A stretch of DNA of 60,184 nucleotides from Bacteroidales bacterium (GTDB lineage: Bacteria > Bacteroidota > Bacteroidia > Bacteroidales > JAIOZK01). Where the stretch lies: the NCBI GenBank assembly GCA_021740625.1, contig JAIOZK010000026.1, positions 1 through 60,184 on the forward strand. The letters run 5' to 3'. A model generated the notes under the pieces. The model was given only the letters and a program-made list of their open reading frames with translations. It searched no databases and was not told where the DNA came from. The first letter of the stretch is position 1, and the number at the start of each line of letters is the position of its first letter. Both the position numbers and the translations under genes were made by a program. Of the stretch, positions 24,322 through 55,635 are shown in pieces.

Positions 24322-24405
24322 GTGCTTTCTGTAAAAAGCATTTTTTTGATATTTTGTTTTTTATAGAGAGCATAATATGTTATTTTTGCTTTTTATAAAA
24401 AGCAA
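24322..24405. promoter_or_regulatory. Three palindromic sites at exact 32-bp spacing before ATPase 1
   Basis: Site 3 (24386-24405) is the perfect palindrome TTGCTTTTTATAAAAAGCAA and ends one base before the ATG. Site 2 (24354-24373) is TTGTTTTTTATAGAGAGCAT and site 1 (24322-24341) is GTGCTTTCTGTAAAAAGCAT; each matches site 3 at 16 of 20 positions. Their centres are 24331.5, 24363.5 and 24395.5, so the spacing is 32 bp twice, about three helical turns. This puts them on one DNA face, as expected for cooperative binding. A likely autoregulatory operator array for the downstream gene. Confidence 0.75.
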
Positions 24406-24406
24406 T

Positions 24407-25600
24407 ATGGAAAATCTAATTCTCAAATCGGAAAAGAAAATCAGGAATGTACCCATTAAATTTATCAGGGATACAATTCATGAAATTGACTGGAATGACA
24501 GATTGATCGGGATTAAGGGAGCAAGAGGGGTTGGCAAAACGACACTTGTCCTGCAATATATCAGAAAAGAACTGTTTGGAAAAGCCAAAGTCCTGTATGT
24601 TGGCCTGGATGATCTTTATTTTGCAGATAACAGGCTTTACGATTTGGCGACAGATTTTGCCAGCTATGGTGGAACATATTTGTTTCTGGATGAAGTGCAC
24701 CGCTATCCCGACTGGTCGAAAGAAATAAAGCTGATCTACGATGATATTCCTGAGCTAAAAGTTGTATTCACCGGTTCATCCCTGTTAAGCATTGTTAATA
24801 CGAAAGCCGATCTGAGCAGGCGGTCTGTTTTTTATCAAATGCAGGGATTGTCTTTCCGGGAATATCTTGCATTTAATTATGGATTCAATTTTAAAAAAAT
24901 TCCATTGGAATCAGTACTTTCAGATCACAAGGAAATTGCTTTTGAAATTAATTCGCAGTTTAAAGTTTTGCCTTCATTTAAAAATTACCTGAATAAAGGA
25001 TACTTCCCCTTCTTTAAGGAAAATCCGGCCAATTATTTATCCCGGCTGTCAGAAATCGCAAACATGGTTCTCGAGGTAGATATACCTGCACAACGAAATA
25101 TAAAAAGAGAAGCCATTCCGAAGCTTAAGAAACTCCTGTACATCATAAGCAATTCTGTTCCTTTCAAGCCCAATATTCAAAAGCTAAGCGAAATAGCTGG
25201 GATTACCCGCAATACCATCGTTACCTATATCAACTATCTTGAAGAAGCAGCCATCCTGAATCTTTTACACACTGATGCAATCGGAATCGGCTATCTGAGA
25301 AAACCAGAAAAGATCTACCTCGAAAACACCAATTTGAATTTTGCACTCAGTGATTCCAAACCAGAAACCGGCAATCTGAGAGAATCTTTTTTCCTGAATC
25401 AACTGAAAAAAAACCACAAGTTAACGTACACAAAAACCGGTGATTTTATGGTTAATGAAAAATACACATTTGAAATCGGGGGTAAAAACAAAACCCTTAA
25501 ACAAATTGCAGGCTTAGGTAATGCATATCTTGCTCAGGATGATATTGAGGCAGGGATTGAAAACAAAGTTCCACTTTGGTTGTTTGGGTTTTTGTATTGA
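24407..25600 (+). CDS. AAA ATPase with winged-helix and DUF4143 domain (copy 1)
   Basis: 397 residues from ATG 24407 (the ATG at 24377 lies within the palindrome array and is rejected). Walker A is GARGVGKT (38-45), Walker B YLFLDEV (91-97), and FTGSS (121-125) is the sensor. A helix-turn-helix segment (about 255-282, LSEIAGITRNTIVTYINYL) follows. The C-terminal DUF4143 part has GDF (Asp346), then FEIGGK (Glu356, Lys360), resembling a PD-(D/E)XK nuclease core, and ends NKVPLWLFGFLY. The family is common in Bacteroidota and archaea; its biological role is unsettled. A paralogue is at 30384-31574. The palindromes touching its start suggest that it binds its own promoter. Confidence 0.88.
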   Translation: MENLILKSEKKIRNVPIKFIRDTIHEIDWNDRLIGIKGARGVGKTTLVLQYIRKELFGKAKVLYVGLDDLYFADNRLYDLATDFASYGGTYLFLDEVHRYPDWSKEIKLIYDDIPELKVVFTGSSLLSIVNTKADLSRRSVFYQMQGLSFREYLAFNYGFNFKKIPLESVLSDHKEIAFEINSQFKVLPSFKNYLNKGYFPFFKENPANYLSRLSEIANMVLEVDIPAQRNIKREAIPKLKKLLYIISNSVPFKPNIQKLSEIAGITRNTIVTYINYLEEAAILNLLHTDAIGIGYLRKPEKIYLENTNLNFALSDSKPETGNLRESFFLNQLKKNHKLTYTKTGDFMVNEKYTFEIGGKNKTLKQIAGLGNAYLAQDDIEAGIENKVPLWLFGFLY

Positions 25601-25601
25601 A

Positions 25602-25671
25602 AAGGGTCTAAGACCCGCAAGGCAAATTTGATGAAATTTGCATGGCTTTCACAGGCGGGTCTTAGACCCTT
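25602..25671. repeat. Nested long hairpin between ATPase 1 and pgi
   Basis: AAGGGTCTAAGACCCGC (25602-25618) pairs perfectly with GCGGGTCTTAGACCCTT (25655-25671). Within the loop GCAAATTT and AAATTTGC also pair. The outer arm is itself nearly palindromic (GGGTCT-AAGACCC). It may terminate transcription from both sides, or be a dispersed palindromic element. Confidence 0.75.
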
Positions 25672-30383: not shown

Positions 30384-31574
30384 TTAATATAGAAACCCAA
30401 ATAACCATAGAGGTACCTTATTCAAAGTACCCGTTTCTATATTATCTGCGGCTATCAGATAATTTTGAAGATGTTGAACCTGTTTTGATTTTTTGCTTTT
30501 TCCTCCTACCTCAATTGTTAAATCCTCAACTAAAAAATCACCTCTATCCGGAGCAAACACCTGTAATCCTGCACTCAATAGTTGGTTCAGAACAAAAGTT
30601 TCCCTGATATTTCCATGATCAGGGGAAGCTTTTAATGCAAATGAAAAGTTGGTATTTTCGAGAAATACTTTTTCGGGTTTTTGTAATGTAGAAATTCCTT
30701 TACCCTGTTGATTCAGGATGTTAATCAATCTTGCTTTTGCAAGCTGATTGATATATTGATAAATACTGTCGCGGCTTAAATTTAATTTGCGGGACAGTGC
30801 AGCAATATTGGGCTTAAAAGGGGCTGATTCTGCTATTACACCCATCAGCTTCTTAAGTTTGACGGATGTACCAGAGTTAAAAGACTGAATATAGGCAAGA
30901 TCGCTATCAACAACAGTATTTATTATTTGCTCCAGTTTGATCTGATAGCTGTTTTCACCTTCAAGGAAAAAGGGCAAATAGCCCGATTTCAAATATTTGT
31001 TGAACAGGGGTATCGGTTTTATTTTTCGAATAATTTCAATGCTTAAATCACGGTGATCTTTTTTTATTTTATCCAGAGTAAGGGGTTCAAATTTATGGCT
31101 TTCAGAAAAATAAAGATATTCTCTAAAAGATAAACCGGGAAGCAAATAACTTATCAGCCTCCTACTCAGATCTGCTTCACCTCTGTATAGATCAAGAGCT
31201 GAAGAAGCAGAAAAAATGATCTTCATCCTGGGTAGGCCATCATAAATATTTTTTAATTCGGTCGACCATCCCTTGTATTTATGCACCTCATCAATGAAAA
31301 GAATGTTCCCGCCCTGTTTGCTCCATTCAAAGGCGGTTTCAAGCAAGGAATTTTTGTAAAACCAGGTATGATCTGCCGTGACATACAAAGCATTGTTGGG
31401 GTGGTTGAGATCAAACTTTAAATGCTGCAGCATTAAAGTTGTTTTACCTGCTCCACGAGGTCCTTTGATGGCGATCATACGCTCATTCCAATTGATATTG
31501 TCGAGCAGAAAACGCCGCCGGTCATTGCTAATGCTTTGCAGTAGATTGTCCTGAAATTCAAATAGTATTTCCAT
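30384..31574 (-). CDS. AAA ATPase with winged-helix and DUF4143 domain (copy 2)
   Basis: 396 residues from ATG 31574 (the upstream ATG at 31631 is within the palindromes and is not preferred). Same architecture as copy 1: Walker A GPRGAGKT (38-45), Walker B ILFIDEV (91-97), sensor FSASS, helix-turn-helix LSRKLNLSRDSIYQYINQL. The DUF4143 end has GDF then IEVGGK and closes with the same NKVPLWLFGFLY. The two proteins are clearly paralogous but differ at the predicted recognition helix (TRNTIVTY against SRDSIYQY), in parallel with their different upstream palindromes. Role unknown. Confidence 0.88.
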   Translation of the reverse strand: MEILFEFQDNLLQSISNDRRRFLLDNINWNERMIAIKGPRGAGKTTLMLQHLKFDLNHPNNALYVTADHTWFYKNSLLETAFEWSKQGGNILFIDEVHKYKGWSTELKNIYDGLPRMKIIFSASSALDLYRGEADLSRRLISYLLPGLSFREYLYFSESHKFEPLTLDKIKKDHRDLSIEIIRKIKPIPLFNKYLKSGYLPFFLEGENSYQIKLEQIINTVVDSDLAYIQSFNSGTSVKLKKLMGVIAESAPFKPNIAALSRKLNLSRDSIYQYINQLAKARLINILNQQGKGISTLQKPEKVFLENTNFSFALKASPDHGNIRETFVLNQLLSAGLQVFAPDRGDFLVEDLTIEVGGKSKKSKQVQHLQNYLIAADNIETGTLNKVPLWLFGFLY

Positions 31575-31579
31575 AATTA

Positions 31580-31630
31580 TGTCGAATATATTCGACAAAT
31601 GTAGTAATAAAATGTCGAATACGATCGACA
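31580..31630. promoter_or_regulatory. Two TGTCGA...TCGACA palindromes before ATPase 2
   Basis: The proximal site TGTCGAATATATTCGACA (31580-31597) is a perfect 18-bp palindrome ending 5 bp from the ATG. The distal site TGTCGAATACGATCGACA (31613-31630) keeps both 6-bp arms. Centres are 33 bp apart. The sequence is unrelated to the sites before ATPase 1, but the layout is the same. Probable operators for autoregulation. Confidence 0.75.
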
Positions 31631-55561: not shown

Positions 55562-55569
55562 GACAATTG

Positions 55570-55624
55570 AAATTCAATGGAAATTCAATGGAAATTCAAT
55601 AGACATTCAATGGTCATTCAATTG
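55570..55624. repeat. 11-bp tandem repeat, five units
   Basis: Units of AAATTCAATGG, the first two identical and the later three diverged, in exact 11-bp register. It starts 9 bp after the dehydrogenase stop. Confidence 0.75.
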
Positions 55625-55635
55625 TAAATTTTACG

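Follow-up and report, generated by a model that had tools for sequence, protein, structure and literature searches.

The locus described here raises the question of why three regularly spaced palindromic sites stand directly before the start codon of an ATPase gene, and which protein reads them. The gene, P0001, lies in a 60,184-bp stretch of DNA from a Bacteroidales bacterium; this whole stretch is referred to as the window. Our analysis makes it likely that the sites are operators for the protein of the gene itself and that they most likely repress it, although binding, dimers, cooperativity and repression are all inferred.

Three phased sites before P0001

An initial annotation, made from sequence alone, had placed three palindromes sharing a 20-bp pattern at 24322, 24354 and 24386, at a 32-bp period and next to an ATG, with the last one perfect. 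The coordinates and sequences were correct, and the spacings were 32 and 32 bp. Only the third site is a perfect palindrome, and it ends one base short of the ATG at 24407. The three sites were confirmed to be related, but the distal and middle copies pair at only 7 and 6 of 10 positions (Table 1). The proximal palindrome opens with the TTG of a Bacteroidota -7 promoter box (consensus TAnnTTTG, quoted from PMC7366714), and the proximal site overlaps both this box and the expected transcription start.

We scored phased triples of palindromes at periods of 15 to 60 bp and in both parities. The P0001 triple scored 44.0, the highest in the window (next distinct triple, 40.0), and its 150 bp were dinucleotide-shuffled 1000 times without once matching that score (shuffle maximum, 34.0). 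The best phased triple in 400 kb scanned from the same genome scored 43.0, at a period of 24. A pair alone was unremarkable: the two distal copies of P0001 scored 19.5, and 5.7% of 174 control promoters reached a pair score of at least 19 at some period. The weight of the finding therefore rests on the triple and on a layout that recurs in relatives, not on the pair alone. The second-best phased triple of the window was a short ATTCAATGGAAATTCAATAGAC-like repeat array (11/22 bp) at 55565-55625, directly past a stop codon.

Table 1. Features of the two family genes in the window, P0001 and a second one; operators and contacts are putative.
Feature	Position	Strand	Basis or remark
Distal operator copy of P0001, imperfect palindrome GTGCTTTCTGTAAAAAGCAT	24322..24341	+	7/10 pairs complementary; next copy 32 bp on
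Middle operator copy of P0001 TTGTTTTTTATAGAGAGCAT	24354..24373	+	6/10 pairs complementary
Bacteroidota -7 promoter box TATTTTTG (TAnnTTTG)	24381..24388	+	Sequence
Proximal operator copy of P0001, perfect palindrome TTGCTTTTTATAAAAAGCAA	24386..24405	+	10/10 pairs complementary
P0001, AAA_14/DUF4143 (PADLOC PDC-S01) ATPase gene, 397 aa	24407..25600	+	Profile matches
AAA_14 nucleotide-binding domain, residues 31-154	24497..24868	+	Domain match
Winged helix-turn-helix, residues 234-305	25106..25321	+	AlphaFold model
Recognition helix, residues 268-280	25208..25246	+	Covariation, model; contacts inferred for R268, N269, V272
C-terminal nuclease-like domain, residues 321-397	25367..25597	+	Invariant D346, E356, G358, G359, K362
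Second family gene, 396 aa, own operators	30384..31574	-	Profile match
Proximal operator of second gene TGTCGAATATATTCGACA	31580..31597	-	Sequence, scan
-7 box of second gene TACATTTG	31596..31603	-	Sequence; overlaps proximal operator
Distal operator of second gene TGTCGATCGTATTCGACA	31613..31630	-	33 bp from proximal operator

The P0001 protein

P0001 matched Pfam AAA_14 (PF13173) at 104.3 bits (cut-off 27) and DUF4143 (PF13635) at 30.7 bits (cut-off 28.1), and it meets the membership criterion of matches above the gathering score. The PADLOC profile PDLC04787 (PDC-S01) matched it at 1.4e-31 over residues 24-345, which meets the criterion of a profile match over most of the protein. There was no match near any cut-off in NCBIfam. 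No relative was found in the PDB by sequence; two myoglobin chains (E 0.88-0.89) were taken as chance.

The AlphaFold model of P0001 had a mean pLDDT of 94.5. It contains a winged helix-turn-helix made of helices 234-250, 257-264 and 268-280 and strands 284-287 and 302-305, the third helix beginning at residue 268. The structure meets the criterion for the STAND/archaeal ATPase fold, a nucleotide-binding domain followed by a helical and a winged-helix domain. It aligned with 2fna over 260 residues (residues 14-315; Z 16.1, rmsd 4.0), and further matches were 2qen (Z 15.6), CED-4 (4m9s, 14.9), a plant NLR resistosome (9h2l, 14.3) and Avs5 (9jap, 12.8). Clamp-loader subunits matched the ATPase part alone with Z up to 13.1, and the first row from Foldseek was Cdc6/Orc1 bound to origin DNA (2qby, E 6e-9).

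The C-terminal 100 residues folded alone with a pLDDT of 89.7, and there was no strong fold match: a Foldseek match at E<=0.001 was sought for the C-terminus and none was found. The best structural match was weak (Z 6.6, TBP-interacting protein, 2czr), and many of the rows were restriction-like nucleases, also weak (Hjc, 1gef, Z 5.0; Ecl18kI, 2fqz, 4.6; AvaII, 6s48, 4.4). An invariant D, E and K (D346, E356 and K362) are kept in the C-terminus of the family. Across residues 346-366, family proteins read E-x-G-G-x-x-K with an invariant D346 and Q366. The usual motif of PD-(D/E)xK nucleases is E-x-K.

Phasing in relatives

Relatives of P0001 were defined by BLASTP at E<=1e-30, which gave 175 unique genes in the first two sets. 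For each gene, every period from 15 to 60 was scanned in 150 bp around the start codon, with a score made of two palindromes and their identity. For the first set, already known when the idea was formed, the best period was 32 or 33 bp in 44 of 67 genes. The same held for 75 of 108 genes in a second set, fetched afterwards, and for 52 of 75 in a third set from named genomes (75 of 80 retained; 1 was short and 4 were exact duplicates). The initial annotation had proposed looking for phased palindromes upstream of orthologues, and these were enriched there: 32/33 bp was best in 171/250 genes of the P0001 subfamily in the three sets combined, compared to 10/174 ordinary promoters of the same genome. 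The remaining 79/250 had no 32/33 optimum.

The choice of genes was not fixed throughout. A stricter filter on the C-terminus, which gave 26/35 and 47/66, was replaced by the BLASTP filter. In a wider version of the first set, 49 of 103 genes were best at 32/33 bp, compared to 14 of 309 shuffles. That set had been cleared beforehand of fragments, of weak matches and of pattern hits (L001, L015-L022, L092-L096); loci were then dropped when the pattern used found no gene (7), when they were duplicates (1) or when the upstream region was too short (1).

The promoter layout recurred as well. A TAnnTTTG box was present at -50 to -10 in 147/175 relatives and 43/174 controls, and half of the boxes found in relatives (75/149) sit at -26 to -30. 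The 3' site of the best pair had peaks near -13 and near -43, with wide scatter. A rule-based count found a third copy in 27/113 genes. Operator copies within 250 bp 3' of the gene were rare (6/113; shuffled, 1). A Saprospiraceae gene (L310) whose product is 43% identical to P0001 has the 20-mer TTGCTTTTTATAAAAAGCAA unchanged, two bases ahead of its ATG.

Other subfamilies and taxa

We also examined canonical DUF4143 genes, using 36 from Bacteroidota, nine of them from the source genome. The 32/33-bp pair is not general in this sample (5/36, four from the source genome). One long dyad of about 40 bp near the ATG was present in 17/36 of these genes, compared to 3/174 controls and 23/175 genes of the P0001 subfamily. 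Six canonical genes from other Bacteroidota (L099, L101-L104, L112) have one interrupted dyad of about 40 bp near the ATG, such as TTTATGCAATATTAAAGTTGAACTATAATTTTGCATAAA in L101, which is another operator geometry.

Family matches were present in 41 plasmid records, and in 30 of these the match covered 80% of the protein or more. We also checked 14 hand-picked plasmid genes from outside Bacteroidota. The best period was 32-34 bp in 5 of the 14, namely in Treponema saccharophilum, Methanosphaera, Rhabdochlamydia (weakly) and two near-identical Aliarcobacter genes, and a Methanomethylovorans plasmid gene is a sixth case by eye only. In the archaeal Methanosphaera plasmid gene (L352), inspection by eye showed TATTTTGTAAAAGATAAAA three times, spaced by about 32-33 bp, and the scan found a pair at 32 bp.

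Two Proteobacteria have 22-bp direct repeats upstream of DUF4143 genes, both seen by eye: TTTCAATTGGTCA in Rhizobium sp. 007 (L345), where the start is not annotated, and TCCAATTACC in Novosphingobium resinovorum (L348). These repeats could conceivably form a two-turn operator. Operator geometry seems to depend on the subfamily, as far as these few genes can tell.

The second gene and the rest of the genome

The window holds a second gene of the family 6 kb from P0001 (Table 1). It matched AAA_14 at 93.2 bits and PDLC04787 at 2.8e-27; a DUF4143 match was not reported. Its proximal operator starts inside the TAnnTTTG box, as in P0001, and the arms of its operator pair differ from those of P0001.

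The source genome has 13 AAA_14 genes above the cut-off, and by eye many of them have gene-specific palindromes directly before the start. The scan found pairs at 33 bp in L002, L005, L011, L012 and L013, and in L013 three copies at 33 bp were seen by eye.

We searched the whole 4.0-Mb genome for further copies of the operators. The perfect 20-mer of P0001 occurs once, also when up to 2 mismatches are allowed. At 3 mismatches it had four further places (control pattern, 1), whose best periods were 24, 46, 20 and 36. The 18-mer of the second gene was found at its own promoter with 0 and 3 mismatches and elsewhere at four single places with 2-3 mismatches (control, 2); one of the 2-mismatch places is C1:209636. 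In this 3-mismatch search there was no sign of a regulon for either protein and no other comparable set of sites in the genome. A search of this kind would miss degenerate sites, and two of P0001's own three copies went undetected by it. Selection for different codes in paralogues sharing a genome was not seen: the operator match was 0.404 within genomes (52 pairs) and 0.397 between genomes (6276 pairs).

Broken or truncated copies of the family are present in the source genome (G000:C47:138083-138656, C21:21001-21773 and C37:11368-11529), and these point to gain and decay. The family gene has a different neighbor in the one genome of the same genus that we examined. A single-gene insertion at pgi was not established from that one genome, in which homology upstream of pgi stops about 39 bp before its ATG.

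The operator arms covary with the recognition helix

The operators follow the consensus WWTGnnn..nnnCAWW, with T favored nearer the center of the left arm. Gene by gene, the three bases that follow TG vary (TGCTT, TGCAC, TGTCG, TGGTT, TGTAT and others), but within one gene they mostly agree between arms and copies. Related DNA readers of altered specificity would be expected to show just such a fixed frame with a variable code.

Covariation was measured in 113 of the 175 genes (best period 32/33, score >=17.5; Neff 97) as APC-corrected mutual information, computed for every combination of 397 protein columns with ten operator positions. The top three of the 3970 couplings joined residue 269 to position -6, 268 to -8 and 272 to -7, and 269 with -7 ranked tenth. 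Residues 269, 268 and 272 share one face of the recognition helix, and the coupled bases are the code positions. The sum of the top three couplings was reached by none of 1000 permutations, and in none of these did the helix account for two or more of the three highest couplings. This statistic was chosen after a first one had failed: the mean coupling of the helix with four offsets gave no signal, 170 of 300 permutations being as high. A partial Mantel analysis corrected for overall similarity peaked at residues 265-273 (r 0.164, 0/1000 permutations), with 0.12 for the best window off the helix.

Shared descent was corrected for with sister pairs, which are disjoint nearest relatives differing at the residue. 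N269 with C(-7) changed as predicted in 26 pairs, in reverse in 0, and was unchanged in 27. Likewise, R268 with G(-8) gave 8 pairs as predicted, 0 reverse and 7 unchanged. Both associations had been picked from residue-base tables of the same genes that were later used in the sister pairs.

For held-out genes we took 48 of the 75 genes of the third set, and then the 37 of these 48 that were under 70% identical to any training gene. In the 37 genes, C(-7) accompanied N269 in 11 of 15 cases and was present in 3 of 22 without it (p=4e-4). G(-8) accompanied R268 in 27 of 31 and was present in 1 of 6 without it (p=0.002). A third association, A/P272 with C(-7), gave 2/2 compared to 12/35 (p=0.14), with only two A/P272 genes, and R269 with G(-6), hinted at by the first set, was not repeated in held-out genes (0/1).

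Prediction of the operator in held-out genes from the nearest neighbor by helix was better than random (0.534 compared to 0.418, p=0.011) but no better than from the nearest neighbor by whole protein (0.526, p=0.58). The code is too blurred for prediction based on the helix to beat whole-protein similarity. The gene of Arcticibacter svalbardensis (L333) has the helix SRDSVYQY and TGTCGA arms; the second gene of the window, at 68% identity, has SRDSIYQY and similar arms.

Proposed self-regulation and alternatives

The sites, the family-wide phasing, the overlap with the -7 box in both genes of the window, the gene-specific arms and the covariation of arms with the helix are shown. The mechanism that we propose from here on is inferred. 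The two winged-helix domains of a dimer would read both arms of each 18-20 bp palindrome through residues 268, 269 and 272, which would contact bases 3 to 5 counted inward from the palindrome end. Neighboring dimers would stand three helical turns (32-33 bp) apart. The proximal dimer would block the -7 box and the start site, and the distal operators would lie upstream of the box. Once enough protein was present, the gene would switch itself off, a single-gene negative feedback whose product would be a STAND-like ATPase with a nuclease-like C-terminus.

The proximal operator lies over the -7 box and the expected start, and occupancy therefore most likely stops transcription. The sign of regulation rests on this position alone, and there is no biochemistry. 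That the ATPase recognizes its own sites, as the initial annotation had suggested, is supported by the covariation and by the recognition helix in the model, without binding data. Its further suggestion of cooperative binding by an oligomer on one face of the DNA remains an inference only, for there are no data on binding, cooperativity, oligomeric state or a shared face. The purpose of self-control is unsettled; a natural reason would be that a harmful ATPase-nuclease is kept low.

The alternative that survives best keeps the binding of the protein to its own operators but has it activate or switch the gene rather than repress it. The distal copies occupy the region before the -7 box in which activators bind, and a third copy is present in some of the relatives (27/113). 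Against it, both genes of the window have their -7 box and expected start overlapped by the proximal copy, and in relatives half of the boxes sit at -26 to -30 while one peak of the 3' site of the best pair is near -13. We consider activation unlikely.

A second alternative is that the sites are substrates of the nuclease-like domain, serving mobility, homing or the cutting of plasmids or phages, and not regulation. The nuclease-like C-terminus, the decayed copies in the genome, the 41 plasmid records and the different neighbor in the same-genus genome are in its favor. However, the copies are found 5' of the gene, over its promoter, and 3' copies are rare, which makes this reading very improbable. 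A DNA-binding protein coded elsewhere could also bind the sites, since palindromic operators alone do not name their reader. There is very little room for this possibility either: the arms covary with the recognition helix of the adjacent gene, sister pairs included, and the paralogues 6 kb apart differ in their arms. Leader RNA hairpins controlling translation can be all but ruled out. The proximal palindrome, next to the ATG, might form a hairpin (no folding energy was computed), but the message is not expected to contain the distal copies, which precede the -7 box, and a fixed 32/33-bp period would be meaningless for separate hairpins.

Relation to known systems

P0001, for which self-repression is the reading we prefer, stands close to several known systems. 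One is PDC-S01 of PADLOC, an AAA ATPase fused to a PD-(D/E)xK domain in a single gene and a candidate for phage defense. P0001 seems to have the two-part architecture of PMC12988326, which reports ATPase domains fused to PD-(D/E)-X-K members, though its C-terminus resembles nucleases only weakly; the P0001 family differs in its E-x-G-G-x-x-K motif. PDC-S01 is the fourth most common defense across all prokaryotes, with counts of 9986 in archaea and 29,494 in bacteria, and validation is pending for most such candidates (PDCs) in the core set (PMC12988326). It is also the most frequent individual locus in rumen genomes (PMC13356809). No operator or regulation of PDC-S01 was found in the relevant passages of these two papers, and six words of regulation (operator, promoter, winged and similar) are absent from the main text of PMC12988326. 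The initial annotation knew of no described system of this kind for the DUF4143 ATPase family, and this agrees with the open-access literature that we searched, in which nothing was found on DUF4143 together with palindromes.

AbiEi and Rv2827c, of the type IV toxin-antitoxin system AbiE, are defense-related autoregulators with inverted repeats in their own promoter. Antitoxins of the AbiEi type autoregulate via inverted repeats, and the Rv2827c promoter has two sets (PMC7319586). AbiE consists of two genes with a separate DNA-binding antitoxin, whereas P0001 seems to unite reader, ATPase and nuclease-like part in one, and the repeats of its subfamily recur at 32/33 bp. The mark of an AbiE-like operon, two adjacent genes of which one codes for a DNA-binding antitoxin, is absent at P0001 among open reading frames of at least 60 aa. 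The controller (C) proteins of restriction-modification systems are small autoregulators that act on phased paired palindromes over their own promoter. They are separate small helix-turn-helix proteins, whereas the winged helix-turn-helix of P0001 lies inside the ATPase.

P0001 shares with STAND and archaeal ATPases a nucleotide-binding domain together with a winged helix. In NLR proteins, the winged-helix domain is known as a switch for the nucleotide state and not as a sequence reader. In contrast, the recognition helix of the winged-helix domain in the P0001 subfamily covaries with DNA. This suggests, by inference and without binding data, that an NLR-like ATPase can use its winged-helix domain for sequence-specific reading of DNA.

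Self-operators in defense loci are a known kind. What appears to be new, in that it was not found in the open-access literature searched, is the proposed self-operators in the one-gene PDC-S01, with a fixed phasing and a partly readable code. The family-wide operator gives a handle on these genes: the DNA target and the contact residues are predicted, the trigger can be followed with a reporter, and paralogues can be discriminated.

A bolder reading, which we regard as no more than possible, is that PDC-S01 genes are one-gene alarm switches. The winged-helix nucleotide switch of NLR/STAND proteins would also recognize, at its own promoter, a DNA address that is private and able to evolve, and the DNA-bound ATPase would be held off while repressing itself. 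The trigger could be ATP exchange, oligomerization, or the loss of operator DNA as a phage degrades or titrates host DNA. Release from the DNA would then both free the nuclease-like end and derepress the gene. If this is true, phased self-operators would be a general mark of a very abundant family in bacteria and archaea, with geometries specific to the subfamily (32-34 bp, 22 bp, or one dyad of about 40 bp).

Other features near P0001

Between 24030 and 25717, the open reading frames of at least 60 aa are the ATPase gene and frames overlapping either it or the preceding gene; shorter frames were unlisted. An inverted pair, GGGTCTAAGACCC and GGGTCTTAGACCC, lies at 25603-25670 between the stop codon of the ATPase gene and pgi. 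The sequence GGGTCTNAGACCC at this position may be a dispersed intergenic repeat; with both strands counted, 460 kb of the same genome contained 10 matches to it.
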